A DNA stretch of 64,000 nt, taken from positions 16,295,944-16,359,943 of the forward strand of contig CM067304.1 of the NCBI GenBank assembly GCA_034231615.1, given 5' to 3'. This stretch comes from Meghimatium bilineatum. Taxonomy: Eukaryota > Mollusca > Gastropoda > Stylommatophora > Philomycidae. A program made the position numbers and the translations under genes. Shown here piece by piece: positions 6,233-58,677 of this stretch. Every line of letters starts with the position of its first letter. The stretch's first letter is position 1. The notes under the pieces were generated by a model that had not been told where the DNA came from, searched no databases, and saw only the letters and a list, made by a program, of their open reading frames with translations.

Positions 6233-6343
6233 GCGTCATGCAGGAGTAAGAACGAAGACTGCGGTCCAGCATTAGTTTGGTGCTGCGGCGAATTGAGTTG
6301 TCAGAATAGAAAACAAATTTATGATGGAAAAAGATGCTACTAG
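6233..6343 (+). CDS. ICK1 exon 2: mature cystine-knot-like peptide (exon 1 outside window)
   Basis: Terminal coding exon of a small secreted disulfide-rich peptide. A polypyrimidine stretch (ctttcc) and an AG at 6231-6232 precede 36 codons and a TAG at 6341-6343. The six cysteines follow C-X6-C-X6-CC-X4-C-X11-C, then Tyr and stop, which is the C-C-CC-C-C order of inhibitor cystine knots (knottins; also framework VI/VII of cone-snail peptides). Three further copies in the window keep the same cysteine order and phase, so this is not chance. It carries one extra codon (GCG) at the splice junction compared with the other copies. Its signal-peptide exon should lie left of the window, beyond the (GATA)n tract at position 1. 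A conserved ATTAAA at 7200-7205 is a candidate poly(A) signal, pushed 850 bp away by a minisatellite. Family membership is inferred from the cysteine pattern only; toxin, antimicrobial, inhibitor and signalling roles are all possible. Confidence 0.8.
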   Translation, partial: ASCRSKNEDCGPALVWCCGELSCQNRKQIYDGKRCY

Positions 6344-6352
6344 TAAACCAGC

Positions 6353-7163
6353 TTATCGGAAAAGGTTTGTCGTGTAACTGTAACTGTATATTGTTATTTG
6401 AGTGTAGTTACTGTAACTGTATATTATTATTTGAGTGTAGTTACTATATATTATAGGAAAAGGTTTGTCGTGTAACTGTAACTGTATATTGTTATTTGAG
6501 TGTAGTTACTATATATTATAGGAAAAGGTTTGTCGTGTAACTGTAACTGTATATTGTTATTTGAGTGTAGTTACTATATATTATAGGAAAAGGTTTGTCG
6601 TGTTACTGTAACTGTATATTGTTATTTGAGTGTAGTTACTGTAACTGTATATTATTATTTGAGTGTAGTTACTATATATTATAGGAAAAGGTTTGTCGTG
6701 TAACTGTAACTGTATATTGTTATTTGAGTGTAGTTACTATATATTATAGGAAAAGGTTTGTCGTGTTACTGTAACTGTATATTGTTATTTGAGTGTAGTT
6801 ACTATATATTATAGGAAAGGGTTTGTCGTGTAACTGTAACTGTATATTGTTATTTGAGTGTAGTTACTATATATTATAGGAAAAGGTTTGTCGTGTTACT
6901 GTAACTGTATATTGTTATTTGAGTGTAGTTACTATATATTATAGGAAAAGGTTTGCCGTGTAACTGTAACTGTATATTGTTATTTGAGTGTAGTTACTAT
7001 ATATTATAGAAACAGGTTTGTCGTGTAACTGTAACTGTATATTGTTATTTGAGTGTAGTTACTGTAACTGTATATTGTTATTTGAGTGTAGTTACTGTAA
7101 CTGTATATTGTTATTTGAGTGTAGTTACTGTAACTGTATATTGTTATTTGAGTGTAGTTACTG
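6353..7163. repeat. 33/65-bp minisatellite in the ICK1 3' UTR
   Basis: Starts just after the stop codon. Core unit is 33 bp (with GTATATTGTTATTTGAGTG); a longer 65-bp form adds TATATTATAGGAAAAGG. About nine long units then four short ones. ICK2/3 have a short array and ICK4 a single degenerate unit at 58680-58730. Confidence 0.92.
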
Positions 7164-8590
7164 TTTGTTATCTTCTTCCATGTCAAACATTTTAGACATA
7201 TTAAAGATGCATATGTACAAGATAACAAGTGACCTTCAGACTCCAGAACACATTCTTCAGACATCTCCACTCTTCATTGACCTAAGGACTTACACATAGC
7301 CACAAGAGCCATATCTGCAGGTATAACTGTCTAACAATCGTGAGGACCTCCTGCTGACGAATGAATTCGTGGAGTTAATATTAAGACACATTAAAGACAT
7401 GGAACCGTGTTGAAGATCTTGCTTGTATGTTGAGCCTAGGGTGGCATAGAAAAAAAGGCAGATACAAGTAGGAGAGAACTATTAAATGAAAATGGACATG
7501 AGACAGTCTGTGAGAATACACCATCAAAGCGTGAGGCGGAGGATGCTGGAGGTTAGTTGCTGGTATATTTTATTACCGAAAAGCTCTTGATTATGATGAG
7601 ACAAGATCTGGACTGGATCGCGTACAGAAGAAGAATATCGTGAAGGTAACAGAGACAAATGGAGAGCCTGATTATGATGATGATTGAAGGACAAGGGAGT
7701 ATGAGCTTATCACTTTTGTATCCTATGCCAGGAGGTGTAGTATATTCTTTGTCTTCGTTCTCAAACTCCTTCAGATTAGCAGGATGTTGTCCAGAAAACG
7801 GAATGTAGTGTATCATGTTTTACATTTTGGTTGTGATGTCTTCGCCTTTTGGACTCAGCATTGCTCCTGGCTCACATAGATCACTCACTGGATGTAACAG
7901 TCAACTTCACTCCAAAACCTGCTTAGTCGTCTTACACTAAATGTGTAGGATGTAACGTTGTCGATATTCGTTGCTCCCTTCTCAAGGCTCGACAACACAT
8001 GGTCGAGGAGATAAAGTATTACTTTCAGCTCTTCTTTTTCTGTGTTAGTTTTCGAACTTCTGCACATTAGCAAGATCTGGTCAAGAAAACGCTGTGCCAT
8101 GGTTTATCGCTTGACTGCGATATCCGCAAATTTTAACTTGCAACATCCTATCTTATGTTCCATATTCTATGCAATTTACCGAAAGACAATGTACTCCTAT
8201 GTATTTAGCAGCAATACTATAAATAAATGCTGGATACACAGTAGCATGAAGGAAAGCAATTTTTTTTTGCCGGTGCATGTTGTCATTGACCGAGGTACAC
8301 AGAAAGGGTCATGATATGGATCTTTTGATAGGTTCCAGAAACTCATCTCAATAATGGAAGATGTTAGTCGACAGTAGTAATGGAAAACAGAATGTCGAAC
8401 TGAAATACAATGTCAGAACAGACTGTCAGACTATTGGGTACTGGTATGAACAAATACAAGTAACATTATACAAGACAGTTTCAACGCTTCAACTTTAAGG
8501 TATTTTTCAAGAAAATACAATACAAACAGTCAACAAACATTTATAAGTGTTGCTAAACTAAGTATAAAGCAACCTAACACCAAGACACAG
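7164..8590. other. Downstream part of the ICK1 unit, no further gene seen
   Basis: Conserved with 21946-23360, 36509-37925 and, more distantly, 58740-61800. It contains the candidate poly(A) signal ATTAAA at 7200-7205, the inverted-repeat arm and a single GTCTGTGAGAATA motif (7504) that has expanded hugely in the ICK4 unit. Open frames here are short and not conserved as protein. Confidence 0.55.
7738..7868 (-). repeat. Inverted-repeat arm downstream of ICK1 exon 2
   Basis: Reverse-complement partner of 5897-6020; counterparts at about 22513-22643, 37076-37206 and (diverged) 60880-61005. A second, weaker relative follows at 8040-8100. Confidence 0.72.
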
Positions 8591-8593
8591 TGA

Positions 8594-8628
8594 TAGACAA
8601 CGTTTCGACTAAAAGGCCTTCATCAGGA
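8594..8628 (-). ncRNA. Hammerhead-like ribozyme core (Penelope-type), degenerate
   Basis: Minus strand reads GTC..., with CTGATGA (8620-8626), a weak stem (GGCC-TTTT-AGTC) and GAAAC (8602-8606), then GTTGTC. This is the order of a hammerhead core, and such motifs are known in terminal repeats of Penelope-like elements. Stem I does not pair well, so it is probably inactive. Copies at 23367-23401 and 37930-37964. Confidence 0.35.
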
Positions 8629-8639
8629 CAAACTAGGAC

Positions 8640-11640: not shown

Positions 11641-11873
11641 CCAAGGTTCAGCAATACATACGTAGATAGCTTTCATCTTCTGCGGGGTTGAATGTTCATC
11701 CTCATACACTGTCCTATTTAGTCTCCTCTTACAACATACACGTTTGCTCCACTTTGAGTCCTGAAACACTTTGTAATCTAGAACCTTTTTCTAGCGGACA
11801 GAAATGTCCAGTGACTAATCAATTGAAAAGACTTTCTTTATCTCAAACATAATTTTCCAGAATCAAAGAATTT

Positions 11874-12001
11874 TTTACCTGAAGGGTTTGTAGATAATCT
11901 CGGCACAATGTTGTTTTTTACCTGAAGGGTTTGTAGATAATCTCGGCACAATGTTGTTTTTACCTGACGGGTTTGTAGATAATCTCGGCACAATGTTGTT
12001 G
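11874..12001. repeat. Short tandem triplication (TTTTTACCTGAAGGGTTTGT type)
   Basis: Three copies of about 47 bp ending in CTCGGCACAATG. Same in 26376-26505; only one copy in the older paralog (41363-41404). Confidence 0.88.
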
Positions 12002-12399
12002 TTATTCCGTGACATATTCTTTCCAGAAAGATGTTTTCCTTATGAATCTCTTGAAATCTCCTCGGGTTTGAGTGAATTTTCCTGCATACTCCAGGGACAT
12101 ATTAATTAATTTCTGGATATCTATTGTCCATCAGCGTCTTGGTCGGTCTTTTAATCTGCTCCAGTATAGCACACCCCCAGAAATACTATTTCCATATCAC
12201 TATGTCTCTTTACATTTCCGAAAAAACTCATGATTTCCTTCTCCATATGGTTTTAAGTAGACATCATTATAGGACATTGATTTTGTTTACCCTCCACCCC
12301 CCCCCCCTCTTGGTTCGACTTCCTTACTGTCGATGGTATTAGCACAATGTTATCACACATATTAACAATATAGATTGATTGAAACATAACATCATGGGG

Positions 12400-12480
12400 A
12401 TATTATTAGCTGAAGGCAGCGTTAACGGCAACCCGAGAGGGCGCCCAAGACGACGATAGTGCAGTGATATATCAGATTAT
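12400..12480 (+). mobile_element. LINE 3'-end scrap
   Basis: Translates to GSVNGNPRGRPRRR followed by a stop, the basic C-terminal motif (RGRPRRRW) common to RTE-like LINE proteins. Also at about 26906-26985 and 41800-41880. Too short to classify. Confidence 0.4.
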
Positions 12481-12499
12481 TTAAATATGTCTTTACGTT

Positions 12500-13735
12500 A
12501 CACCTTCTGGACAAGTCAATTCACCAAGAATCGCGGAGTGTTCATGGAATCCATAAAGACTAAGTTCTGGAAAGAATATGTCACATGGTGAGATTGATTG
12601 AATTCTGTCAAAGCAAGTGAAAACCAACAAAATTGTAATCGAATGTGCTGACACACGTCGCGAATAAAACGATATGAAAGATTAATACAAGTAATTAGTT
12701 CAATTAAAACACGAAAATATAAGTGGCCGGATAAAACGAACAGACCCATGTCGGCGGTTCTAGTCATTATTGGGCAATGATTGCACCTATCGGCTGATCA
12801 TTGACAGATCCATGTTTTTAATTGGATGGCGAAGCTAAGTACACGCAATTGTCGCTGCATGAGTGACACAGTCCACATGACATTTCTGTAGATAAATGTT
12901 TTCCTCAGCCTATCATACTTACTTGTGAGTGGTTGTTTAGTCAGGAAACGTTGCAATAATAATCATAATTTAAACAATAAAAATAATTGGACAAAATAAT
13001 TCATAGTACTATTTATCTAACAACCAATCAAAGTCGAAATAATGTCAGTAATAGCGACGACAGAACGTTGCTCTGCATGTTACACCACTTGGATACACTG
13101 ACTGTACTAGACAACACAGGGAATCTTCAGTTATTCTGGTATGTTGACTTTGTTATAGAATATTACTCTTACTGTATTTTGTTATAGATAATTATAGTTC
13201 TAAAATCTTTATAATAACTACGGAGAAGGTCCTCATGGGGTCTCAGAAACAATGGAGGATTTACGTATAAGCTAGACAAGTTATAGCTTAGGGCCCCCAC
13301 TTTTCTGAGCAATTGTCATATATACTTAAATTAGTTAAATATATTGCAGTATTATTTGTCCCAATGGCACAAGTCCTGAAAGCTTAAGGCCTTATCAATT
13401 CTACATCAGGACCTGCTCAGAAACAACTAATCTAACCTCGGTGATACCATCCCAGAACACGATCTTTAGAAAATCTAACAATCTTATATTGATTGCTGCT
13501 TTCTGTAATCAGGTTCAAGTTGACATCGGGGTGTAGAAGTTGAAAAATAATGTCAACAATTGGAAAGATAATAGAAATTCATCTGCAGTGGACATAACAC
13601 ACGATGATGATAAATACATTTCTTGCAAGTTACAAGTTGGTATCATATCTGAATCAAGACGATCGATTCTCTTTTTTGTAGTTCCAGTAACAGATAAATA
13701 AACAGATGAGTAAAGTAATTATAAAGCTAACACCA
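12500..13735. other. Intergenic sequence upstream of ICK2
   Basis: Shared with 27006-28240 and, diverged and interrupted, 41900-43925. A/T-rich; no coding exon or RNA gene recognised. Confidence 0.5.
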
Positions 13736-13737
13736 AC

Positions 13738-13992
13738 ACGAGATAAGTAACAATTTATAAACAGATCAGACCAAGTTGTCACTCAAGGCCTCAGTGTGGA
13801 ACATGTGTACACAGTTCAAAAATTGTTGACACGGCCGTGCATATATGTGGACAAGCACATCCGATAGCAGAGTATATTATTCAGGACTGCTCAGAATATG
13901 AAATGATGGGGCAAGTACACTGACTCAGAGAAACAACAGTGAAAGAAAAACTATACGGACCTCTGTACGAGTTTTTAAAATACAGTCAAGTT
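13738..13992 (+). mobile_element. C-terminal fragment of a second RNase H-type LINE
   Basis: Broken frame with HICGQAHPIAEYIIQDCSEYE and KLYGPLYEF, matching the CxCG..H...C end of I/Jockey-like LINE proteins. Better preserved at 43925-44187. Confidence 0.65.
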
Positions 13993-13996
13993 TAAA

Positions 13997-14262
13997 GAAG
14001 AGACAAAACTTCAGATATAAGCACATTACATACTAACTTCAGATATAAGCACATTACAGACTAACTTCAGATATAAACACATTACAGACTAACTTCAGAT
14101 ATAAGCACATTACAGACTAACTTCAGATATAAGCACATTACAGACTAACTTCAGATATAAGCACATTACAGACTAACTTCAGATATAAGCACATTACAGA
14201 CTAACTTCAGATATAAGCACATTACAGACTAACTTCAGATATAAGCACATTACAGACTAACG
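13997..14262. repeat. 28-bp minisatellite
   Basis: About nine copies of a 28-bp unit (CTTCAGATATAAGCACATTA core) derived from the LINE 3' UTR; a single copy remains at 44205-44232. Confidence 0.93.
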
Positions 14263-14343
14263 ACTGAAGAAGCAACTCCACTGATTTTCTAGGAAATAAG
14301 TTTATTCATCGCGCTTCTTAACAATCCGGTTACTCATTTATGG

Positions 14344-14571
14344 TCAAGATATACAAAAATAGGAAGGAGTGTTACCAAAAAAACCCCATAAAACGACCTA
14401 TCACGAGATACACACCGCTGTGTTCGTTTGAGCTCGTTGTTAGGTTGTTTTATGTTTTATTTTGGTAACACACCTACCTATTTTTGTATATCTTGACATT
14501 TGCCCAGTGTTACCCCAGCCACCTACTTCCTGTTTAGGGTTGTTACCCTACACTGGAACATTTATCACTAT
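14344..14571. mobile_element. Foldback MITE upstream of ICK2
   Basis: A 153-bp hairpin (14344-14496) with arms starting TCAAGATATACAAAAATAGG, plus a 75-bp tail with its own CCAGTGT/ACACTGG pairing. Flanked by a 10-bp duplication TCATTTATGG (14334-14343 and 14572-14581). The ICK4 unit has the empty site (ACTCATTTATG at 44321-44331). Confidence 0.8.
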
Positions 14572-14655
14572 TCATTTATGGTGCCGTTACCAGATTATGA
14601 GACGCAATCACAACATTAAAGCTCCTTATTAATCCAACATTTCATTATTTGTAAC

Positions 14656-14733
14656 TTGTTATATTTTTCAATGTTTTACAAAGATCACGACAAGCGACGT
14701 CAATCAAATAACATCAATAATAAGATGACCAAC
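14656..14733 (+). promoter_or_regulatory. ICK2 core promoter and 5' UTR candidate
   Basis: A TATA-like TTATATTTTT (14658-14667) lies about 70 bp before the ATG, then a conserved block with ACGTCA (14697-14702, half of a CRE/ATF site) followed by ATCAAATAA. All are conserved in ICK3 and in the diverged ICK4, although the surroundings differ. Transcription start is not determined. Confidence 0.45.
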
Positions 14734-14799
14734 ATGAAGTTGATGTTGTTAGTATTAGTGGTAGCCCTATTGATGACCGTAACACTTGTCGAATCTTGT
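14734..14799 (+). CDS. ICK2 exon 1: signal peptide
   Basis: First coding exon: 22 codons from ATG, beginning MKLMLLVLVVALLM, a typical hydrophobic signal sequence, ending Glu-Ser-Cys at a perfect GTAAGT donor (14800-14805). The codon boundary falls at the splice site (phase 0). I chose the ATG at 14734 over the in-frame ATG at 14725 because the ICK4 paralog has TTG at the latter. The matching exon 2, also phase 0, is at 21597-21704, giving an intron of about 6.8 kb that holds the (GATA)n tract, a 1.33-kb retroelement and a dead LINE. A direct join would give a precursor of about 57 residues with seven cysteines, one from this exon and six from exon 2. An extra small exon between them cannot be excluded. 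The intron opens with a (CT)n(CA)n(TA)n microsatellite. Confidence 0.75.
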
Positions 14800-14808
14800 G
14801 TAAGTTCT

Positions 14809-14811
14809 CAA

Positions 14812-14843
<32 letters not shown>

Positions 14844-14943
14844 TCTCTCTCTCACACACACACTTACTCACACACACACTCTCTCTCTCTCACACACACA
14901 CACTCACTCACACACACACACACAGATATATATATATATATAT
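14809..14943. repeat. (CT)n(CA)n(TA)n microsatellite in ICK2 intron
   Basis: Compound dinucleotide repeat starting 9 bp after the donor. Confidence 0.95.
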
Positions 14944-15104
14944 GGGCACAGTTGTATTGTTATTATATAAAATCAGTACTTTTTTGACAAAGCAATTCCT
15001 GATTGTTGTAGTTGTGCATTTCTGTCTTATAGTTTGATTTATGTTTCATAATGTTATAGATAAATTCCCAAAATAGCAAATGTGTTTGTTAACATTAATA
15101 ATAG

Positions 15105-15446
15105 GTCAGACAACTGAAACGAATACTCGGCGTGCCATTAAAAAAATTGAATTAGAAACGACAACATCAGACAATTAACCAAAACAATACCAGTATTGGA
15201 ACACACAAAAAGACAAAAGATCAAATGGTTTTCACACGCTTCCAGACTACCAACAGATAGCACTCCACAAATGGCCATGACACATAGACATCACGGCTAT
15301 AAAGCCAGAAACAGACCATGCAAAAGATGGATCACAGAAATCACAGAAGCCACAGGAACAAGCACACAACATCACACAAGAAGACCATCTCCATGGAACA
15401 CTTTTACCCATCCCATGACGCGGCAAGGCAGACAAGGATCACAGAG
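15105..15446 (+). mobile_element. 3' fragment of RTE-like LINE with GATA tail
   Basis: Encodes RQKIKWFSHASRLPTDSTPQ and YKARNRPCKRWITEITEATG, the C-terminal signature of endonuclease/RT-type LINEs, then runs directly into (GATA)n. 5'-truncated. The related minus-strand element at 44397-45510 also ends in GATA-like sequence (minus strand ATAGATAGGTAGA), so the tract is the LINE tail. Confidence 0.75.
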
Positions 15447-16429
<983 letters not shown>

Positions 16430-16441
16430 ACTGTTATATTG

Positions 16442-17771
16442 GGGTGCAAAGGGAACGCAGTGCTTTAGGCGGACCCAGGTTTAGCAGATAACGATGATCC
16501 CAAATGTACCTCCTCGCGGTGCACCCTGGTAACAGAAAACAGCAACTCGAGCTGATTCTGGCCAAATAATTTGAGGATGTCCGAGAATATGGAGGTAGCA
16601 GATGGAAAGAGATTTGACTGCAAGAGAGACAGACAATATCTACGATACCATTTGCATCATCACATACAGCGACACTGTCGACATACAGTGACGCCAGTTA
16701 ATCCAGTCAGAACATTGTAGGGGGGCCAAATGAAAAAAGCATGAAAAGGTGGATGCATGGCGAAAGACAGACAGATTTCATACTGTGTACAATGAAAAAA
16801 ATGAAAGGGCAGAACAGCGCTGAAGGGTAACGCCAACTGCAAATAGATAGTGGAAACGATTACGGAAATGGGAACTACAAGCTCTGTTATTTCGTGACGA
16901 GCTTCTAGTTACTTGATTTCCTATAGGCAGAGACCAATACCCAATAATTGGCGTCTAGCAAAGCAAAAAGACCTGGCCTAACTCTAATGTCGAATCTTCC
17001 TATACAGGAAACATGCTCGCAAAGAGAAAGGGTGCCGTAACCGATAGGCTCAGGAAAAAAAAGGGACAAAGATGGCAGTCCTGGCCCAACTCTACTGTCA
17101 AATTTTCCTATAGCGGAAATACACTTGCAGAGAGAAAGGGTTCCGTACCCAATGGGCTCAGGAACAAAAGAGACAACGAGTTTAGCCCTGGCCCAACTCC
17201 ACTGTCAGGTTTTCCCGTACCGGAAATACACTTGCAGAGAGAACGGGTTCAGTACCTGATGGGCTCAGGCGCTACTGGGACAAAGTCACTCAGCTCGAGA
17301 ACGCCTTGCTCTCAAACGCGTGGTGTGAGACTCGAACTTAGGCAAAGGGTTCACGATGTCCGTGAATGACACCTCGGCTAAGAGGGCGAAAGAGCTAGGG
17401 TCTAACTCTTCTGTTGAGTTATTCCTCTTAAGGAACCAGGCTTACGGATGAGAAACCGTTCAGTACCCAATGGGCACAGGCACATTACGTCCAATTACAC
17501 GAGGCAAGTTCATAGACAGTGGAACACCTCGTTAGAGACAGACTTGAGCAAAAAATTGTCTGGGTGAAGAGTCACCACACACACGCGTGCCTGGCGAAAG
17601 ATAGGGAGGCTGTCACAGGCTAGGGTAACCCAACCGAAATGTCAAGGCATGCCGAAATCGGATGTGCTAGACCTACAAGGCGCATAACGGTGGCACAACG
17701 TAATCACGCTCCCGGCGGAAATTGCACGGATATCCATGCTGGTTACAATGGAGCGAAGGCAAAACAAACAA
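16442..17771 (+). mobile_element. 1.33-kb non-coding retroelement, copy b
   Basis: Orthologous to copy a within the repeating unit. The target duplication ACTGTTATATTG is perfect here (16430-16441 and 17772-17783). Same start, internal triplicated block and A-rich tail. Confidence 0.78.
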
Positions 17772-17889
17772 ACTGTTATATTGATCAGCATCAGGTTTTA
17801 GGCAATCAGCTATTTACAGAAGTATTTAATATGTGAGAAGCGCTGTAGCCTAGCTGATAGTGAGCTTGCTTGCTATTATAGAGTTACAG

Positions 17890-20800
17890 GACTTCCGGTC
17901 AAAATAGCGGACATATCGACGTGTATTTTCTGTGTGACACCGTCAACTTCACTTGAAATATGGATTATTTCATTATTTCGTTTGGGATGTGGTGCTAGAT
18001 ATTTTAGCAAGGGGTGCACTCATCAATATCTTCGCCGTTGCCACGGAGTACGTGCATCAGAACTGAAATTTCAATGGTTATAGTCGTTATTTCACGTGAT
18101 TACAAGGCCTAGTACACAAAAAATGGCAGGTAAACGTAGACGTCCGAAAAGGGGCGGGGCCAAACGAAAAGGTCGACGTGCTGGAATGAGACGCCACATA
18201 TCAAAAGTCGTTCGTCTGTCTTTAAAATCGTTACGTGTGTTCTTCTGGAAAGTCGCTAGTGCCGAAAAACGACGTTCTGAGCTGAATATGTTGGTGTATA
18301 GCGCAGATACACAGATTGTGGCTTGACAGGAATCGCGTTTGATAATGAGAAACTGTCTTCAAGTCACCGGCTCTCATAGTTTCTACAATAGACGACATTT
18401 GGGCAAAAAATACTTGTACGGGAAGACACTGACGCAGTCGAGATAGATATGTCTGAATGGAATAGTGACGACATTCAGCTGCAAGCTGTCAGAGTATAAA
18501 AGGTACACCACACTTTCGTGCTCGTCAATGTGTATGCGTGCAACGCGAGCATGAAAGTACAGGGCTGCAAATTTTAAATGATGTTTTAAATGAAGAAAGA
18601 GAAGTCATTGTCTTTGAGGACTTTAATGCAGAAGGCAGATTTTGAGTCAATACTGCCTCAAATTAACAGAGAAGAGATCTTGAGGAAGCTTTGATTGATA
18701 TGAATTTAGTATGCATAAACGACGGGCGCATGACACCGTTGGCAGCTAGGGACGGCGATGATGACAATGCAAATGATTTGCACTTTGTGGCGGCTAATAT
18801 AGCACCCAGATGTAGATAGGATGTGCTGGGGCATCATTGAAGCGATCATTTGCCATGTGTCTTGTTGGTGGACAAAGGAAAAAATATACAACAGAGAGCT
18901 AAAGTGTCCTTCCAGTATGATCACAATGGTTGTCCATCGTAAGCAGAATTAGGAAGGAAAAACGTAGGACAAACTCCACCAATGCACATATGTGAAATCA
19001 ACCACCCCCCCCCCCTGGTTAAATGATGAGATTCAATATGCATGAAAGGGCAAATGTAGCACAGTTGTAGAGTGGCAAAAAGCAAGGAAAAAAAGTGATT
19101 GCACAAATGTTGGCAATGTTGGCTGGCAATGTTGTTCAACAAGATCCTAGCGAATGGCACAGAGGAAGAAGGCTGGTTGCATATTTACTTAATCCCACTA
19201 CCCAAGCCTGGCAAGTCATGCAAAGATGCAGGGCTTCAGGCTCATAACCATGAAGAATAGGATCGGCAAGTTGTCAGAAAAGATTATTGCGTGGATATTG
19301 TCCTTACATTTGGAGAGGAATAAAAGACTACCCTCAACATTGGGAGGCTATTGTAAATGTAAGAATACTTGACACAACGTCTCCGAATTAATTCAATTCA
19401 TGTTTGAAATTCTTAGAGACGTGCGCGGTTGTAATAGACCTGGAAGATCCTTATAACAGAGTGTCCTTGGAATTTTTGATGACCATAATGCTGCAACGTA
19501 AGTCCTTTTATTGTCAGGTGGAATGTCTCGGCCCTTTTTCAGAGACAGGTTGTTCTTAAGTGTGGAAATTGATCTTCGGCACAGTAATAAGCCTGTGACT
19601 ACCACAAGGGTCACCTCTGTCTCCAGTATTATTTAATGTGTATAAAGTTCAAATTACGAGTTCTCAGATTGCAGGACCTGGGAGAACTATGTCCTATGCT
19701 GATGACATCTTGGTATATAGGCAGGGCTAAGATAAAGAAACGAACGCCAGGAATTTGCAGAGGAAGCTTTATCGTTTATAGGAGTAGTGCTGTGATTCTG
19801 GAGCTTTTGTTAATTCATCAAAAGCATCAATCACATTGTTTTCCCTGAATAATCACATAGTAAACACGTCCGCGTCATCGGTTACTTTGAGAGGGGATGT
19901 CTCTGAAAGAACCAGTACAATGAAGTACGTGGGGGATATGTTGGACTGAAGTCTGAGCTTCAAAGATCATGTTGACCACATCATTGTAAAGGTCTTGCGG
20001 CGATGAAAGTTATGACTGCTGCTCAATGTGAACAGAGGCTGCTATTTCTGCAGTATCAGGGATTGGTTGTGGCGGTAGTACAGTACGTTCTGACTATTCT
20101 GCCACCGAGGCAGACTCATACAGAAAGACTGGATAGTGTCATGAGGCAATGTGAATCCTTTTGGGGTGTACGAAAGATACGTCGGCACAGGCAATGCGAT
20201 ACCTACTTGATTTCCCAACTACAGAGCAAACAATACAGATGTGCAGGGCGCGAGACTACCTACAAATCACCGCTGATAAAGAGGACCCTCTACACCCTGA
20301 AATTATCAAAGTGAAAGGCAGTCGACTTAAGAGAGGAAAGTCGTGGAGGGAGCGCGCGGAGGCCATTATACAAAGTGTGTGCAGATTATAGGATGTGCTA
20401 CGTGGTGTGGAATGAGGTCGCGCGCACGTAGAGTGTCCGACAGCCTTCAAAGTAATAATAACACTCAATAGAAAATAAAGGAAATGGTGTCCGACAATGG
20501 TGGAGTCTTATGTGCTTCTCTGATCGGTGAGAATTACAAGGAAGGTGATATGATTGCATATACAGATAGGTCGATTGAGAGACACATCAGCGGTGTCTGG
20601 GACTTGAAGGCTCAATGGTGGGGAAAGACCATCGGATGTGGTGCATTCGCTCAGAAAACAAGCATCATGAAAATGCAGTTTGTAGCAGTAACCAAAGCTT
20701 TGAAATGGGTGTGCTCGCAGAATGCGACACATGCCTGTACACTCAGTGACTCGATGGGCATGATTGTGAGAGTGCAGGTGGGGTACATTCGGGAAAAGTG

Positions 20801-21704: not shown

Positions 21705-21716
21705 TAAACCACCTTA

Positions 21717-47125: not shown

Positions 47126-47394
47126 ATTTCAAAAGTTGATGTAACAAATGGTCATCATTACTTGTGATGGACACAGTGTGTCAGCCTTTTATATGATTAT
47201 ACAATTAAATAAAACATCTAGAATCACCGCATCATCATGATTGTCATTAAAAAGTCAACCATTAACAAAGTCTAAGATTTAACTAATACACCAAAACGTT
47301 TCTCATCATCAACCGTTAGATGCAGAAATCCAGTCAATTAGGGTGGCAATTGAAAAACTAATGAACTCCAATCCTGACCCACAGCCAGTGGTAT
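47126..47394. other. ICK4 intron sequence
   Basis: Diverged counterpart of 5090-5330, with one 64-bp-type unit. No gene seen. Confidence 0.45.
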
Positions 47395-48679: not shown

Positions 48680-48967
48680 TGTTAGCAGTAGTGGTAAATA
48701 TCGTTTACAGGACGTGGTCCTTGCCGGTAGGCCCATGTGATGCCGGGGTCGACATGGTCCCACATGTTGTTCGATGATGCAATTTTTCCAGGGGGAAATA
48801 ATTCAATCCGGCTGCGTTTTTGGATCCTTTATCTTTAATTTTCAAGTTTGATTTAAAGATTATTTTGTTGGATCTTCGTATTTTATATTTGAAAGTTTGG
48901 AACATTGTTTAGTGTTTGATAATGCCTGACATCGCTGGGAGTGGGGGATTAACTACGTGTAAATCTA

Positions 48968-49592
48968 GTACCATGCTAAGCCATTAAAAGGCCAAATGTA
49001 CCATGCTAAGCCATTAAAAGGCCAAGTGTATCATGCTAAGCCAAAAAGGCCAAGTGTACCATGCTAAGTCATTAAAAGGCCAAATGTACCATGCTAAGTC
49101 ATTAAAAGGCCAAGTGTATCATGATAAGCCATTAAAAGGCCAAGTGTACCATGCTAAGTCATTAAAAGGCCAAATGTATCATGCTAAGCCAAAAAGGCCA
49201 AGTGTACCATGCTAAGCCATTAAAAGGCCAAGTGTACCATGCTAAGCCATTAAAAGGCCAAATGTACCATGCTAAGCCATTAAAAGGCCAAGTGTACCAT
49301 GCTAAGCCATTAAAAGGCCAAATGTACTATGCTAAGTCATTAAAAGGCCAAATGTATCATGCTAAGCCATTAAAAGGCCAAGTGTACCATGCTAAGCCAT
49401 TAAAAGGCCAAGTGTACCATGCTAAGCCATTAAAAGGCCAAGTGTACCATGCTAAGCCATTAAAAGGCCAAATGTACCATGCTAAGCCATTAAAAGGCCA
49501 AGTGTACCATGCTAAGCCATTAAAAGGCCAAGTGTACCATGCTAAGCCATTAAAAGGCCAAATGTATCATGCTAAGTCATTAAAAGGCCAAG
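48968..49592. repeat. 30-bp minisatellite
   Basis: About 21 units with ATGCTAAGCCATTAAAAGGC; grown from a GCCATTAAAAG motif that is single in the right arm. A long frame through it (10 codons per unit) is a by-product of the period. Confidence 0.93.
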
Positions 49593-49899
49593 TCCACTGA
49601 CAACTGATGAATAACATCATACACCCTCCCCCCAGTACGATGATTACCGGCAAGCAGAATGTTGCGAATTATGACATGTGGCCATTAAAAGTTCCAGTCC
49701 ACTGACATATGAGTAACATCACATGTTCCCAAGCATGGTGTTCTAGACATTGTACTAAGATTCTATAATAAGCCATCCGTGATAACTCTAGACTAATACG
49801 TGATGTTTATGTGTTCATTATTGTCAGATGATATTATATTTTGAATTTTATGTTTTAATTATGTTATTTTTTTAAATTTTAATTATTTTTTTTTAATGT

Positions 49900-50275
49900 T
49901 GAAAGTGATTTTTATGTGTTCAGTTTTGTTGGTTGATACTATATTGTACTTAATTTTTATGTGTTCAGTTTTGTTGGTTGATACTATATTGTACTTAATT
50001 TTTATGTGTTCAGTTTTGTTGGTTGATACTATATTGTACTTAATTTTTATGTGTTCAGTTTTGTTGGTTGATACTATATTGTACTTAATTTTTATGTGTT
50101 CAGTTTGTTGGTTGATACTATATTGTACTTAATTTTTATGTGTTCAGTTTTGTTGGTTGATACTATATTGTACTTAATTTTTATGTGTTCAGTTTTGTTG
50201 GTTGATACTATATTGTACTTAATTTTTATGTGTTCAGTTTTGTTGGTTGATACTATATTGTACTTAATTTTTAAA
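49900..50275. repeat. 45-bp minisatellite
   Basis: Eight units with TTTTATGTGTTCAGTTTTGT and ACTATATTGTACTTAA; the seed is single in the right arm (about 57975-58025, minus). Confidence 0.93.
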
Positions 50276-50329
50276 TTTAATTTTTTTGTTTCATTTTGAA
50301 AGTGAGAGTATCAATGAAATGGAATAAGA

Positions 50330-50990
50330 ACGGAAACCTACGATGGACGAGGTCAGATATTCAGTCCGAAATCTGAAAAAGGAAAAGCTCCACGATAAGC
50401 ACCAGAAATGGTCAGTGCCGGATTTAGAATTTATATGACCCTAAGGTATTTGCGGTATGGGGCCCATTATAAGTCCAGATATTATATGCCAGTGCGAAAT
50501 ATGATTTTTTTGGGGTCCTAAGCTATAGCTTGTTTAGCTTATAGGTAAATCCTGCACTTGAAATTGTACAAGTGAGAGGAGATTCCACTGTTCAAATATA
50601 CCATACGTTTTGCGAAATATATGGAAAAGCGGAATATGGCCAGTAGAATGGAAAAAGTCAGTATTCCTACCCTTACAAAAGAAAGGAGGCCTTCAACTAT
50701 GTACCATCTATTGAACATAAGCACTAATTAGTCTAGTCAGCAAAATACTACTACAAATTAAAATGAACAAAATACAACACAAATTAGAAACAGAAATTCT
50801 TGAAATTCAAGCTGTTTTTTAGCAGGATGGTAATAAGAGACTACATATTCAACATAAGGAACATAATTAAGAAATGTAGAGAATACAGCTCAGACATACA
50901 TATATGTTTCCTATACTACAAAAAGACGTTTGATTGTGTTAAAAATCACCGAATATCGGAGCCGGATAATATCCAGGGTAGGCTACGGGA
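50330..50990 (+). mobile_element. LINE reverse-transcriptase fragment
   Basis: TMDEVRYSVRNLKKEKLHDK, then after a MITE IVQVRGDSTVQIYHTFCE, and FFSRMVIRDYIFNIRNIIKK with KKTFDCVKNHR (degenerate palm). Same class as the LINE at 62700-64000. Confidence 0.78.
50413..50559. mobile_element. 147-bp hAT-type MITE nested in LINE
   Basis: Termini CAGTGCCGGATTTA and, inverted, AAGTGCAGGATTTA; 8-bp duplication GAAATGGT (50405-50412) / GAAATTGT (50560-50567), one mismatch. Splits the LINE frame. Confidence 0.72.
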
Positions 50991-50999
50991 GGAGCGTAT

Positions 51000-52360
51000 C
51001 GGAGGCCGAATATTGGAGATGTAATAATATATAGTAATATGCGGACTGCATAGAAGGATTACATTTTTGTGGGAGGGATAGTGGGTGATAAAAACACCCA
51101 CGAATAGAAATGCGTGGTCAGTCAATATGACAAAATACCTACAAAGGATTGTCTGTGTCTATTTTGGTGTTTCTTAACACAACAACAATATGAATTATCT
51201 CACATGCTACAAGAAACATGGGTACAATGTTAACCAGCGGTCACCACACCCACCGCCGATCGGCGTTAACCTAAACCAGATGTTATAGAGTGCTATCATT
51301 TAAATCTTCCAAGCCACTCTTACACTTGTACAGCTGGAAACCTCACAAAGAGTAATGCTTCCTACTTAAATTTACTTGTATAAACAATTATTCGAAGCAA
51401 AATTGTATTGCCTATATATGTTATCCATGTTTACAAGAAGACCTATCGGACCTTGTATAACTAATACGGATATTATATGTTTGTTGTTGCTGAGAATATT
51501 TCAAACCTGTACGGGATGTTTGTTGTTGTTGTAATAGTCCTTGTCTCGATCGGTCCGTTCTGGTGACTTTGTGTGCACGGTTTGAATGGCTTGATGAAAT
51601 CGCATCTTTTTTGGAGATGCGGTTAGTCAAGTACGGAAGAACTTCCATCATTAATGTGAAGAGGCATGTGTGTATTTATAAAAGTAATATATACATGCTA
51701 CGTGTTATAAAAACTCTCAATAATAGAAGTCGATAAAGAAAATATATAAGAAATTAAATATGTGGTCATCCACTTTCTCAAGATTAGAACCCTCGTTATT
51801 ACCCTAACAAGTGTTACTCATCGTGTGATACATTGTTCTAAAATTTTATCAAATAGATACTACGGCGATCTATGTATTTCAGCAGCATTTATTATCAATG
51901 TTTATTTTCCCTTACTATTTGCTCGTTAAATTTAGTCAAAATATAAAAAAATTACAATAACACAAACATCATGTCATGAGAATTTCATGATATTGTGAAA
52001 TATTTATATATAATCTATCATAAAACTTCTCCACTTGGGAAACCAATCAGATGAAGTAAAGATGTTGAAGAGACAATACTACGTCCACGTTGACCATTTT
52101 TCGGCACAAATATGCAGGTCCATGATCGGTCACCCCTGCTATTCCCTGCTAAAATCCTCTATTGCATGGCTATCTCTTGCTGTCCCCTGTTATAACATGT
52201 CACCCGATATTCTTTCCTGTTATGATATGTCACCCCTGTTCACCCTGATATGATCTGTTACTCCTTGATATTCCGCTACCCTCTGCCATGATCTTCCATC
52301 TCCTGTTATCTCCTGTCAGCCCCTGCTAATTTCTATGAGCAGTATGTTTCGTTTTGAACC
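51000..52360. other. Unrecognised interior of the large element
   Basis: A/T-rich; 52100-52330 is a degenerate pyrimidine-rich array of CACCCCTG..ATTCC-like segments. No gene seen. Confidence 0.5.
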
Positions 52361-52364
52361 ACAT

Positions 52365-52480
52365 GAATCAAAGAAGCCACGGGAACAAGCTTACAAAAAG
52401 CACACAAAAAGACCATCTCCAGAGAACTCTTTACCTTTGACGCTACAAGGCAAACAAAGGCCACCGAATATATATATACA
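52365..52480 (+). mobile_element. LINE 3' scrap with TA tail
   Basis: AAGCCACGGGAACAAGC and AAAAAGACCATCTCCA match 15345-15400 of the GATA-tailed LINE family; ends in (TA)n. Confidence 0.55.
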
Positions 52481-52544
52481 GTATATATATTAATAGCCCG
52501 TGCTTTACTCCTATGACCTGTCGTGAATGGTACATGTCTATGGT

Positions 52545-52806
52545 CAGCTATAATCTGCTACAGGTCCATGACCTGCTGTGATATATTTGTTACAGGTTCT
52601 TGACCTGCTGTGATATATTTGTTACAGGTTCTTGACCTGCTGTGATATATTTGTTACAGGTTCTTGACCTGCTGTGATATATTTGTTACAGGTTCATGAC
52701 CTGCTGTGATATATTTGTTACAGGTTCTTGACCTGCTGTGATATATTTGTTACAGGTTCTTGACCTGCTGTGATATATTTGTTACAGGTTCTTGACCTGC
52801 TACGCT
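52545..52806. repeat. 32-bp minisatellite with palindromic core
   Basis: Eight units of 32 bp, each with CAGGTTCTTGACCTG, an imperfect palindrome, then CTGTGATATATTTG. Confidence 0.93.
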
Positions 52807-52809
52807 CTC

Positions 52810-53635
52810 TTTTGTCCTGTAACAGATCAAAGTCCGAGTATGACCCGCGAGGTTGAAGTTTAAAGGTTGAAGGGATGCAGATGTGAATTCCTTCTCTCAT
52901 TCCAATTATACAGATTTATGGACATAAAACACGTATATTGTCAGCGTACAACAGAATATACCGCGACAGACGTATACAGATACATATTCAGACACAATAA
53001 ATAGACACAAACATGTCGATATGTCCATGACTACATAGCATTACGTTACGTAAGAACCCAACACAGACGGAACAAAATTGACAAACACAATGTACACAGT
53101 TTACATGCGTTTATTGATACAGCATTCACATATTTATTTTTTAACGAATAAAATAAGACAAGAAAAATAAGTTCGTGTGACATTAATCTTCTTGCTGTCT
53201 GATCTGAAGACTACTTATCATTTTACACAGGATGAAACTTTAGAAGAATCATATTATGCCCTTTCTGTCTCTTGCTTGGGTATAGATACGATCTGTTCAC
53301 CAACTATTGGAATGGTAGATATATTATAATCATTAACATAAGCGAGCTCTATGTTTCCACTGGATACTGTGTCTCATAATGCCACATCAGGAGCAGCATA
53401 CGAGGCGAATGTTTGGATGAAATCGACTATGTGTGTTCCAGTATACATATCTGTGGCTGGCACATATACTTAAACTATGAAATTCATTCAAAACATCTCG
53501 ATGTTGAATTAGATGTACAAGTTCTTGTCGAGTTATATATTGCAGACATATATTTTTTTAACAAAAATGACTTAGAGCTCGACACAGTAGTGATGGTCTA
53601 GAATAATAGGCATTAAAATATCTCAAATTGTTGTA
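52810..53635. other. Unrecognised A/T-rich sequence
   Basis: No gene, RNA or repeat recognised; a 62-codon frame at 53413 has no recognisable motif. Confidence 0.45.
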
Positions 53636-53639
53636 CAAT

Positions 53640-54700
53640 TTGCATTCTTTGTCGTTTTTCTAGACGACGAACCACACTTTCCATAAGATTTCTAAGTTTC
53701 TAAATAAATTTCTGACAATTTTCTAAATTTTAATGTCTTAACAGCTCACATTTTCTACCAAGAAGTCTCATATTTGCATATTTCCATCTGTCAAAGTTCA
53801 CCTTTTGTTATTTTTCTAGACCATAAACCATACTTTTCAACATATTTCTAATTTTCGAGTACGTTGTCTCTTTTCTAACTTTTTATGTCATAGGAATTCA
53901 CTCTTCTCTGCCAGCATGTGTCATATTGGTATATTTCCATCTGTCAACACTATTTGTCGCTTTTCTAAACGATCAGCCACACTTTGTATCACCTTTTCAA
54001 GTTTTATAATTCAGTTTTTGTCATATTTCTAAGTTTTCATGTCACAAGAACTCACTTTTAACTAACAGTATGCGTCATATTGGCATGTTTCCATTTGTCA
54101 AACTTCACGTTTTAACTATTTATTTTCTAGACTTTTAACCATACATTTCAAGATATTTTTAAGTTTTCAAAAATACTGTTTGTCTAATTTCTAACTTTTC
54201 ATGTCATGTCAACTACCCTTCTCTATCAACATATCTGATATTGGTATGTTTCCAGGTGTCAAGCATCATTCTTTGTGACTGTTCTAAACTATGAATCTCA
54301 ATTTTTTATAACATTTCTAATATTTATGTCATACAATAACACATTTCAACACTTCCTCATTAACTACATAACTCATTTTGACGTTTTTCTATTTGTGGAA
54401 CGTCATTGTTTATCGCATTTCACAACACTCCAAGAGGATTTTAAAAATTAATTTTCATATGATAATAGTCAATGTTTGTCTCTTTTCTATACGTACATGT
54501 TACTCACTACTTTTCTCTACCAACGTGCCCATATTTAAATGTGTCAAACTTTATATTTTTTTAGTCAGTTCTCTAAATAATATCATACCAAATCACATTT
54601 CAACACTTTCTCAATAGCTTCATAAGTCATATTGACACGTTTCTATATGTATGGAACTTCATTTATAAAATTGTTTTTCTTAACTGTCAGATCCGCATAC
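53640..54700. repeat. Degenerate satellite, period about 156 bp
   Basis: Recurring TTTTTCTAGAC (53658, 53814, 53963, 54125, 54282), each followed by AACCATACTTTTCA-, TTTCTAAGTTTT-, TTCATGTCAT- and TGTCATATTGG-like blocks. Spacings 156, 149, 162, 157. Two more units at 57390-57745. Confidence 0.75.
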
Positions 54701-55815
54701 ACCGCTGTTCGATATGATCAAATTCAATGTTTGTCCCTTTTCTATACTTACATGTTCACATTTCACGATGATTTTAATACCTAGGAAATCTGCACAACAT
54801 CGGATTCTTCATCTTGATAGTACACATGAACAAGTGCAACGCGGGTCCCTCTAGTGCTAAGGATCATCGCGAAATTAAGAATAACACTAAAATGTATTCT
54901 TTACGTCTAAAGAAAGGGAGACATGACGATATGTAGGGCTTTGTACCTAGCCCAATCTGTCCCCTTCATTGGCGTGAGACTACCAAGTTTTTTTATGCGC
55001 TTGTCTGTATCACATATATTCACACGTGTGGTCTAAGTGAACGATGGTGCCAACTTGTGCAAGTGGATGACCACCTATTTAATGTATATTGTCTTTAGCT
55101 TAACCATTTCGATTATATATATATTGCTTTTAGAAACACACACAGGCATCCCCACATTAGTGATGGTCCAGAATAGTATGCATTACTCTTTGTAAGGTTT
55201 CCATCTGTACACAGAAATATTTCATATAGGCCTGTGTGGCCTACACGCAGGTCAACATGTAAGAGTGGTTTTTGAGATTTAATTGATATCACTGTATAAT
55301 ATCTTGTTTATGGTAACGCCGGTCAGCGGCGAGTGTGGTCATCTCTAGTTAACCTTTTACACAAGTTTCTTGTAGCATGTGAGAAAATTCATAAAATTCG
55401 TTGTGTTTAGAAACACCAACAATAGGTATAGGCAATCCTTTGTGGGTATTTTTGTCATATTGGTGGAAAGCGTATTTCTATTAGTGTTTTTAACACCGAC
55501 TTCCCCTCCCACCACATGTTATCCTTCTATGCAACGCGCCGGGGTGTGGAGGGGGGGGGGGTGACTCCGATATCCGGTCTCGAATGCATGCTAACGGCAG
55601 CCGTCCATCGATACGCGCTCCTCGGTAGCCTGTTCCGATGTCCGGCCTCGAGATATAGACCGAGCCCTCTCCTCTCGCTGTCCCGCTGAGTGCTGTGAGC
55701 AGTCCTGCTGTATCTATAGTTTATTTAGACGCCATAACCTGACACATGCCTTCATGTTAGGTGCAGAACATACGCTACTAGTAATGTGTAAAGAAATTAG
55801 AATATCTGGGACCAA
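54701..55815. other. Mixed unrecognised sequence with a G/C-rich patch
   Basis: 55480-55700 is clearly G/C-richer than its surroundings, with a poly-G run (55550-55560) and repeated CCGATRTCCGG-CTCGA segments. Origin unknown; no frame or RNA recognised. Confidence 0.4.
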
Positions 55816-55819
55816 AAAA

Positions 55820-56235
55820 AACAATTTCTGAGATTGTTCAGTTGAGATTAGAAGATTCGCAAATGCAACACTCAAATTAACACAAATGAAAATGTTTTCG
55901 ACAAAGTAGTAATAACAACATTAAAGAAACTCTTAATTAAGATCATGTGTTTTCCCAGTGTCAACATAGAGATACAAGACTTTAAACAAGACAATATCCA
56001 GAAGTATAAATTCATTTTAAATGCAATGCTACAGAAAGATCATACGAATATCATGGACAGAGAAACAGAAGTACCTTAAAATTTCGAAATTACTGAAACT
56101 AAATGAAGGGTGGCTACTAAGTACCAACATAAGAAGGAAGCTGCAGTATTTTTGACACTTAAAGAGACATAATGGTATAGAGAAGCTGATTCTGGACGGT
56201 AAAGAGCTAGGCGAGAGAAAAAAGAGGAAGATTTC
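55820..56235 (+). mobile_element. LINE C-terminal fragment
   Basis: Broken frames with CYRKIIRISWTEK-like (ATCATGGACAGAG), then IRRKLQYF and RHNGIEKLILDGK, the conserved FGHLKRH..GIEK region of a third LINE family. Confidence 0.65.
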
Positions 56236-56257
56236 GAAGACAATAGACTAACGCCAT

Positions 56258-56625
56258 TTAAGAATATCTGAACATGTCTAAGACCAACGAAAGCCTGCTT
56301 GCCTGGAATAGAGAGGTGTTCAGAGTATCCACCATGAGGACAACGTCCTGGAAGTAATTTGTCACTGAATATATGTCTAAATAACGTATATTGGGTTCAC
56401 ACACAAATACTGAAAATGGTAAAAAAATAAATATTCTAAGGCACCCCGCGGAGCTTAAAAAATTTCTCAATTTTTACTTTAAAATCAAATAAAGCTCATA
56501 AAAAATGTATGAACCTGTTTAAGGTCAATGCAAGCCTGCTGGTCCGGGATAGTGAGACGTTCAGAGTTTTCACGATGATGACGACGTTCTGGAAATAATG
56601 TGTCACTTGGTATATGTCTACATAA
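56258..56625. repeat. Imperfect direct repeat of about 250 bp
   Basis: 56263-56400 and 56513-56645 share GAACATGTCTAAG/GAACCTGTTTAAGG, AAGCCTGCT and GACAACGTCCTGGAAGTAAT-like blocks. Confidence 0.6.
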
Positions 56626-56840
56626 CTTATAACTTATATTGAGAGTACACTTAAACTTATAACTTATATTGAGAGTATACTTAAACTTATAACTTATATT
56701 GAGAGTACACTTAAACTTATAACTTATATTGAGAGTACACTTAAACTTATAACTTATATTGAGAGTACACTTAAACTTATAACTTATATTGAGAGTACAC
56801 TTAAACTTATAACTTATATTGAGAGTACACTTAAACTTAT
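56625..56840. repeat. 30-bp minisatellite
   Basis: Seven units with ACTTATAACTTATATTGAGA and GTACACTTAA. Confidence 0.93.
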
Positions 56841-57307
56841 ATCTACAAGACTACCAGAAATTCTCTAGAAGCAGCGCTTTAAACAATTTCACAAAGTTTC
56901 ACTTTAAATATCCAGTAAACCTCAGAAAAAACTATTTGTTTTTAGCAAAGTTAACACATAAAACCCCTTTTAAAATTAAAGAAAAAAAGCAATCAAAATA
57001 TAATAATTTCATTATCCTACAAAACTCTATACATACAATCACTTTAAAAATTATAAAAAATATAAAAAATTAAAATTTCATCATCAGACATAACTTAACA
57101 CATAAAATTATTGTCAAAATAAAATAAAAATATGCATAAATGCAAAATTAAAAATTGCATGAGAGAAAACCTATCACATTTCAAAATGTATCACAAAACA
57201 TATCACTCTTTCAAAATTGAAAAAAAACTTCAAAGAAATAACAATTCAAAATATCATCCTACAAAACGTACATAAAATCACTTCCAAAATTTCAAAAACC
57301 CTTCAAA
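56841..57307. other. Very A/T-rich sequence
   Basis: Poly-A-rich with CAAAATTTCAAAA-like segments; no gene seen. Confidence 0.5.
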
Positions 57308-57378
57308 AGTCGTAGAGGATTGACTTCCTTGTACTCGATTTCCTATTTGTTCCCCGTCACTATTATTGACTCGGCATT
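57308..57378 (-). mobile_element. SINE family A, 5'-truncated copy
   Basis: AGTCGTAGAGGATTGACTTC and following bases are the reverse complement of the SINE-A 3' end (compare 62600-62634). Confidence 0.6.
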
Positions 57379-57389
57379 ATAAAAACTCC

Positions 57390-57745
57390 AATTGTTGTAC
57401 GATATGCATTCTTTGTTGCTTCTGTATGATGTTGAATCACAATTTCCACGACATTTATAAGTTTATAAATCCATTTTTGTCAGTTTTCTAAGTTTTCATG
57501 TCATAACAACGCACATTTTTCTACTAACTAGTAACATATTGGCATATTTAAATCTGTTAATCTTCACCTGTTGTTATTTTTCTAGATGATGAAACATACT
57601 TTTCAACACATTTTGAAGTATTTAAGTACATAATTTTTTTTTTCTAACTTTCATGTCATAGCAATTCAATCTTCTCTACCATCATGACTCTTATTGGTAT
57701 TTTTCCATGTGTCAAACATTACTATTTGTCACTTTTCTAGACTAG
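57390..57745. repeat. Satellite, period about 156 bp, second block
   Basis: Two units continuing the family of 53640-54700 (ATGCATTCTTTGT, TTTTCATGTCATAACAA, TTTTTCTAGATGATG). Confidence 0.7.
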
Positions 57746-57746
57746 C

Positions 57747-57943
57747 AGTCGTAGAGGATTGACTTCACTGTACTCTATTTCCCATATGTACTCTGCCACT
57801 AAAAACGTTGCGGCGCCCCTCATGCCGAGAGTACCACTCATAGCACGTAACTCCGTAGCTTCAAGAGATAATCCGCAGGGAATTCCGAAAAAATACACCG
57901 AAAAAATTCGAATAGCTTAACCAATACACTAAGGAGATCCCCC
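57747..57943 (-). mobile_element. SINE family A, near full length
   Basis: Minus strand: GGGGGATCTCCTTAGTGTAT with A box TAGTGTATTGGTTAAGC, shortened B-box region (ATTCGAAT), body TGCGGATTATCTCTTGAAGC and ACTCCGTAGC complement, 3' end CAATCCTCTACGACT. Matches 62412-62634. Confidence 0.75.
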
Positions 57944-57949
57944 GAATTA

Positions 57950-58557
57950 AAAAAACTAATCCAAATATTATCATCTAAAATAGTATCAAATTATATTATC
58001 ATTGTAAAACTTAACATATAAAAATCACGTATTAGTCTAGAAATAAAGCGGATGTGTTATTATAGAAGCGTTAGTACAATTTCTAGAACACCAAACCTGC
58101 GGCCATGTGATGTTACTCAATTGTCAGTGGATTGGGACTTTTAATGGCGCTATGCGATAAGCCGATACATTCTGCTAGCCAGTGACCACCGTACTGGTGG
58201 GGGAAGGGCATGTGTTAGACTGAGTCTTTTAATGACTAGGCATGATACTGGATTTACACGATGACCACGTAATTAACCTCATCCATCCGCCATGTCTGAC
58301 ATTATGAAACACGAAAAAAAAGTTCGAAATTTTTAAACATGACATACAAGGATACAACAATGCTATCCTTAAAACCGTAAAAAAATAATTGAAAGATCCA
58401 GCAACTCGGGCTGCATCAATTATCCCCACCTTAAAAATGTCATCATGGAACAAGATGTCATGTTGGACATTGTCGGCCCGGCCGCGAATGGTCATTCCAG
58501 CATCCATCTAGGTCCCTGACTATGGGGCCGCATTATGTAAACGATATTTATCACTAC
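57950..58557 (-). repeat. Right terminal inverted repeat of the 9.87-kb element
   Basis: Reverse complement of the left arm without its minisatellites; ends CGATATTTATCACTAC at 58557. Confidence 0.75.
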
Positions 58558-58572
58558 TGTTGACATTGACAG

Positions 58573-58677
58573 TCATGCACGAAACGGAACGAAAATTGCG
58601 AATCAATATTCAAGTTTTGCTGCGGTGCTGATACTTGTAAGCATGATTTCAATAATGATGGGAAAAAATGTTTCTAG
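58573..58677 (+). CDS. ICK4 exon 2: mature cystine-knot-like peptide (diverged)
   Basis: Terminal exon after AG at 58571-58572; 34 codons, TAG at 58675-58677. Cysteine spacing is C-X6-C-X6-CC-X4-C-X10-C followed by Phe-stop. Apart from the cysteines, the leading Ser and the Gly after the CC pair, little of ICK1-3 is retained, yet the frame is intact, so selection on the scaffold is likely. Oddity: the 9.87-kb inverted-repeat element ends at 58557 and its 8-bp target duplication at 58565, so the ancestral pyrimidine tract upstream of the acceptor now lies at 48.67 kb and the acceptor must rely on element sequence. Splicing efficiency is therefore uncertain. A conserved ATTAAA lies at 58752-58757, 75 bp after the stop. 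Confidence 0.75.
   Translation, partial: SCTKRNENCESIFKFCCGADTCKHDFNNDGKKCF

Follow-up and report, generated by a model that had tools for sequence, protein, structure and literature searches.

We analyzed a stretch of 64,000 nucleotides from the gastropod Meghimatium bilineatum (contig CM067304.1 of assembly GCA_034231615.1, positions 16,295,944 to 16,359,943, in the following called the window) and found that it carries a tandem array of short split reading frames. Our data make it likely that this array comprises at least four two-exon genes (three if the neighboring genes B and C are an assembly duplicate) for small secreted disulfide-rich peptides, which are diversifying and may have an effector role. 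The original prediction, which was made from the nucleotide letters, had placed four second exons and three signal exons here, and we recovered all of them on the plus strand in the right order and in phase 0. Exon 1 is located at 14734-14799 in gene B, at 29240-29305 in gene C and at 45606-45671 in gene D. In all three genes, it encodes a hydrophobic, signal-like leader of 22 codons, which ends in a cysteine and is followed by GTAAGT. The leaders of genes B and C are identical and that of gene D differs from them at 15 of 66 bases and at 7 of 22 residues, but start codon and donor are the same. An in-frame stop is present a short way upstream of the ATG of gene D. Exon 2 is found at 6233-6343 (gene A), 21597-21704 (gene B), 36160-36267 (gene C) and 58573-58677 (gene D). 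It involves 34-36 codons, is preceded by AG and terminates with an aromatic residue and TAG (Cys-Tyr-stop in gene A). In gene A, the acceptor AG is immediately followed by an additional GCG codon, gene C differs from gene B by a single substitution (Ile/Val) and gene D differs from gene B at 45 of 105 bases with an intact reading frame. Both the exon 1 side and the exon 2 side of the intron are in phase 0. Exon 1 of gene A must precede the window, since the counterpart of window base 1 in unit B is base 16030, which is beyond the leader of gene B. The predicted tandem family of short split genes with a secreted-type leader and a six-cysteine mature part is supported by these data, as is the statement that its exons are too short for gene calling based on open reading frames.

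All four exon 2 frames carry the predicted framework C-X6-C-X6-CC-X4-C-X10/11-C followed by an aromatic residue and a stop. When the six frames of the entire window were searched for the strict pattern C-X6-C-X6-CC-X4-C-X9..12-C, we obtained four occurrences, which are exactly those of genes A to D, and 200 dinucleotide-shuffled versions of the window contained none. With a less strict knot pattern, we recovered the same four stretches and 19 matches over the 200 shuffles. The cysteine framework is beyond chance. Searches of the window with a DNA profile of each exon did not yield clear additional copies and the next matches had E-values of 8.5 (exon 1) and 0.16 (exon 2).

The strongest support for our interpretation comes from the rate of change of exon 2. 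For genes A and B, we counted differences in collinear BLAST-homologous blocks from which tandem arrays were dropped. Here, we found differences at 19 of 106 bases in exon 2, but only at 336 of 9,681 in the other aligned DNA (one-sided Fisher test, p = 7e-9). Comparison with the nearest intron stretch alone (16 of 326) gave a similar picture (p = 1e-4), and in the block count the 3'-stretch containing the tandem arrays differs at 18 of 202 bases. From a sliding scan over 1,983 segments of 105 aligned bases, it can be seen that the median number of differences is 3 and that only five segments, all of them on exon 2, reach 19. Despite this divergence, all six cysteines are kept between genes A and B. 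The rate of change in exon 2 is about five times that of the surrounding DNA; for comparison, PMC10561478 cites mature exons of conotoxins as about three times more divergent than their flanking non-coding DNA. A first A/B count without an excess in exon 2 (19/105 vs. 83/428, p = 0.89) was replaced because its stretch had taken in non-homologous upstream sequence.

Collinear blocks shared by genes B and D lie before exon 1 and after exon 2. In aligned non-coding blocks of the two genes, 423 of 2,470 bases are different. Exon 2 exceeds this rate (45 of 105, p = 2e-9) and exon 1 does not depart from it (15 of 66, p = 0.25), but such BLAST blocks are biased to conserved DNA, which is much less of a problem for the A/B comparison. 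The exons might also be unexpressed remnants of a dead family, in which the reading frame was kept by chance or by gene conversion. The rapid change of exon 2 and a transposon-like insert that replaces the end of the gene D intron right before the acceptor would be in line with this scenario, but we consider it very unlikely. A dead exon should change at the rate of its intron and an ordinary gene more slowly, and relaxed constraint would not give exon 2 five times the rate of the intron; with its cysteines held, exon 2 fits neither pattern. In addition, random substitution seldom preserved the open frame together with the six cysteines (2,212 of 200,000 runs at the distance from B to A, 7 of 400,000 runs at the distance from B to D). 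Taken together, these sequence comparisons suggest that the family is real, fast-evolving and probably functional and that it encodes small disulfide-rich peptides of the secreted type.

The pairing of exon 1 with exon 2 rests on conserved order, phase and divergence pattern, and the two exons are presumably spliced directly to each other. In favor of our reading, the leader with its start and donor has been retained in gene D, as have the order and the phase of the exons. We compared the introns of genes A and B with that of gene D by tblastx and blastn, and no convincing conserved middle exon was detected. The shared sequence was confined to the stop-filled last 100 bp, simple repeats, pieces that resemble transposons and a minisatellite region. 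A comparison of candidate exons was restricted to phase-0 candidates with strong donor patterns outside the gene D insert (30 from gene B, 8 from gene D) and was controlled with the reverse strand. The best B/D pair shares six residues and scored 14.6 bits (control 12.7 bits), and the best A/D pair scored 11.5 bits, which is below its control (13.5 bits). A 67-bp block with one open frame, which is common to genes A (5188-5254) and D (47175-47241), was rejected; it is unmatched in genes B and C and lies beside a minisatellite.

These results bear on the possibility that we are dealing with three-exon toxin or defence genes, the propeptide exon of which escaped detection in the intron. Such a layout is usual among the compared gene families of the inhibitor cystine knot (ICK) type, including most of those of cone snails and those of funnel-web spiders and scorpions. 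A propeptide exon may be both short and variable, a short fast-changing one would be compatible with our data and the best B/D candidate slightly exceeded its control. However, this candidate sits in an RNase-H-like transposon frame of gene B, the A/D control outscored the A/D candidates, the intron comparisons yielded little but the stop-filled end, repeats and transposon-like pieces, and phase 0 on both sides differs from phases 1 and 2 in those families. A hidden third exon appears unlikely to us.

As in conotoxin superfamilies, the array genes combine a conserved leader with a variable mature exon with fixed cysteines, the introns are long and contain simple repeats, and the mature exon outpaces its flanks. 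In most conotoxin superfamilies, leader, propeptide and mature part are encoded by three exons, which are separated by a phase 1 and a phase 2 intron (PMC3862624; for exon counts see also PMC10561478 and PMC8152183). Exceptions in phase are intron 1 of the I2 superfamily (phase 0) and intron 2 of I2 and T (phase 1; PMC3862624). Two-exon genes exist in the A superfamily and for conodipine (PMC3862624, PMC8152183), and the intron of the A superfamily sits inside the pro-region (PMC3862624). In contrast to the I1, M, O2, O3, P, S and T superfamilies, in which the leader exon ends at a phase 1 intron and the propeptide has an exon of its own, genes B, C and D involve phase 0 and lack a convincing middle exon. 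ICK genes of funnel-web spiders (Hadronyche; PMC13172734) and the lambda-KTx/calcine genes of scorpions (PMC3694633) comprise three exons, interrupted first by a phase 1 and then by a phase 2 intron, and encode a propeptide. They resemble the array genes in that the last exon holds the mature part entirely or nearly so, and the spider introns are long and transposon-rich, but the array genes are in phase 0 on both sides. Other spider toxin genes were reported to be intronless. The CRP-I knottins of Mytilus form a variable multigene family, and their C-C-CC-C-C mature part is encoded entirely by the last exon, which is exon 4 and follows a dibasic propeptide site (PMC10138031). Neither four exons nor such a site were seen in the array genes, and a dibasic cleavage site is absent both from exon 1 of genes B, C and D and from exon 2 ahead of the first cysteine. 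For nemertean toxins (PMC10674772) and the vexitoxins of Vexillum (PMC9363990), the accessible parts of the reports contain no gene layout for comparison.

At the level of protein sequence, the exon 2 profile and a 41-residue frame containing the leader gave no candidate relative among 5.8 billion predicted proteins in a search that requires three shared 5-residue words. Among viral contigs, 28 stretches carried the pattern and none was confirmed as a relative. None of six short strings derived from the exons occurs in a paper of the literature library searched. When the four-sequence exon 2 profile was compared with solved chains, we obtained a single match, the spider toxin Hm-3 (PDB 2mqu; E = 0.0065). 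In searches with single peptides, Hm-3 was reached with A (E = 0.058) and D (E = 0.072), and phmmer with B alone returned no toxin, Hm-3 included. Hm-3 of the crab spider Heriaeus melloteei is described as a gating modifier of sodium channels in PMC6737007. Its cysteines are spaced similarly where the two align, and it shares the stretch W-CCG-x-L-x-C, but the score is weak, the alignment covers only profile positions 2-30 and loop 2 of Hm-3 is longer by one residue. Hm-3 appears to be the best lead to homology, but this lead is weak and possibly due to convergence. The Pfam family Toxin_12 (PF07740) matched peptides B and C weakly (E = 0.055-0.057, 14.5-14.6 bits, below the 21-bit cut-off) and did not match A and D. 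Thus, membership in a named toxin family is unsupported by the present matches, and as far as our searches reach the array appears to be new as a family but known as a kind.

Several observations weigh against our interpretation, in addition to the bias of the B/D blocks. First, Nei-Gojobori counting for exon 2 of genes A and B gave 17.5 nonsynonymous and 1.5 synonymous changes, but with so few synonymous sites the ratio of the nonsynonymous (dN = 0.238) to the synonymous rate (dS = 0.082) is not significant by itself (Fisher p = 0.35), so that the case rests on the comparison with intron and flank. Second, the splice-site scores are moderate. The intron side of the donors (GTAAGT) is ideal and their exon side is weak. 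With a donor scoring matrix, about 6% of 3,787 GTs reach the score of those of genes B, C and D, and 16.6% of the AGs are preceded by an equally pyrimidine-rich run. Because equally good sites are common, splice sites alone are insufficient to prove the pairing of the exons. Third, AlphaFold models were weak: the two best exon 2 models had values of 66.8 and 71.3 for the predicted local distance difference test and a predicted template modeling score of about 0.3, with two short strands each, and neither Foldseek nor VIA-align retrieved anything for these two models. Of the cystine knot in the original prediction, the cysteine order was thus found (C-C-CC-C-C in genes A to D with loops of 6, 6, 0, 4 and 10/11 residues, as in ICK peptides) and for the knot fold with its 1-4, 2-5 and 3-6 disulfides the models are weak; a knottin-like structure is our best guess. 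Fourth, the leaders of genes B, C and D end in a cysteine and their exon 2 opens with Ser-Cys. If the leader is cut before its final cysteine, the peptide has seven cysteines, an odd number for a plain knot with three disulfides, and if it is cut after this residue six remain. Finally, the difference of about 0.2% between genes B and C falls in the allelic range.

A left-over seventh cysteine could make a dimer. Extending this idea, the array might represent an undescribed animal family, in which the leader leads straight to the mature knot without a propeptide, with one phase-0 intron and, where exons 1 and 2 meet (C-S-C), a seventh cysteine that is conserved and joins two peptides in a covalent dimer. 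Hypervariable knottins of the venom or immunity type would then have an independent origin. We regard this as a long shot.

The low B/C difference is related to the history of the array. Units A, B and C, each a repeat of 14.5-15.4 kb, follow one another head to tail. Identity is 93.5-97% in the main A/B blocks and drops to 85.7% in the block with exon 2 and the 3'-tandem array. Units B and C show about 99.8% identity along 14.5 kb (11.7-26.2 kb), with 25 substitutions and 7 indels. The duplicated unit with gene B extends over about 14.5 kb (~11700-26200) and its tandem copy with gene C over ~26200-40750. The near-identity begins at or before 11.7 kb and stops near 26.2 kb, which is about one repeat period, and 43-bp minisatellites (11871-12000 and 26378-26507) adjoin the ends. 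Such ends and such a length are as left by one unequal exchange. Alternatively, the assembler might have placed two haplotypes or alleles in tandem, in which case the array would hold three genes. The allelic level of divergence would fit with this scenario, but a block of about one period with ends at homologous places near the 43-bp minisatellite is what unequal crossing-over predicts, and we consider a false duplication rather improbable. In our preferred reading, genes B and C appear to originate from one recent tandem duplication within the array. Thus, the four predicted copies exist as exon 2 frames but would represent only three independent lineages (A, B/C and D). Non-coding divergence among the copies is about 0.2% for B/C, 3.5% for A/B and 17% for B/D (BLAST-aligned blocks), and gene D is an older copy.

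Gene D is distinguished by a transposon-like insert of 9.87 kb in its intron (48686-58559) with long diverged terminal inverted repeats. Its ends are CAGTAGTG...CACTACTG, and the 24-bp terminal repeats are followed by inverted blocks of 67.9% and 77.2% identity. We did not identify a transposase in the insert, which carries tandem arrays of 30, 45, 32 and 30 bp and is separated from exon 2 by only 13 bp of intron. If the inner repeat blocks were near-identical at the time of insertion, the event would be old and the frame of gene D would have been kept long afterwards. A second exon 2 of gene D near 48687, suggested by a conserved intron end, was rejected, since the insert begins there.

Combining these data, we propose the following scenario. 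Exon 1 (22 codons) would provide the secretion leader and, beyond a long phase-0 intron, exon 2 (34-36 codons) the whole six-cysteine mature peptide. The peptide would enter the secretory path, shed its leader and fold into a knottin-like disulfide core. It may then act extracellularly on a changing target, such as an ion channel of prey or predator or a microbe, and this target would select for new surface residues at fixed cysteines, as expected for diversifying selection on a venom or immune effector. Copy number would grow by unequal exchange between the 14-15-kb units. A narrower version, which is compatible with this scenario, assumes a non-venom secreted peptide (an antimicrobial or other immune effector or a mucus peptide), and we give it a nearly even chance. 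The mussel CRP-I knottins, which make up a variable multigene family and have the C-C-CC-C-C pattern in common with the array peptides, are discussed together with antimicrobial peptides in PMC10138031, and there is no sign of a venom gland in the sequence data. On the other hand, the sole sequence lead is a spider neurotoxin, although it is weak and possibly convergent, and nothing is decisive either way. If the array is transcribed, its evolutionary signature would have uncovered a peptide family that is missed by gene callers based on open reading frames. In this signature, an exon of 105 bases with intact cysteines diverges more than any other stretch in about 9.8 kb of duplicated DNA, the remainder of which is similar. 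Short cysteine-framed exons that are more divergent than their own introns could be used to locate venom or immune peptides that are unannotated in other genomes, and the B/C, A/B and B/D pairs may offer three time points of one diversification.

Additional repeats accompany the array. The introns of genes B and C contain nearly perfect (ATAG)n arrays of 158 units (15448-16078) and 172 units (29954-30640), and thus, these otherwise near-identical introns differ in array length. The 3'-flanks of exon 2 of genes A (6353-7164), B (21714-21937) and C (36277-36500) are amplified into 65-bp and 33-bp tandem repeats, which begin about 10 bp past the stop, and gene D has a single stretch. A 70-bp tandem array of 23 units (59129-60747) is located just downstream of gene D. 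Rfam gave no match and no transfer RNA was found. When ten selected frames of the window were searched against Pfam, the only match above the cut-off was an RNase H piece. A 232-codon frame at 63045-63740, for which Pfam gave no match at E = 0.1, is related to endonucleases/reverse transcriptases of mobile elements, with nine relatives, the named ones of which occur in the rotifer Rotaria and the sea slugs Plakobranchus and Elysia. The observed/expected ratio of CpG was 0.69.

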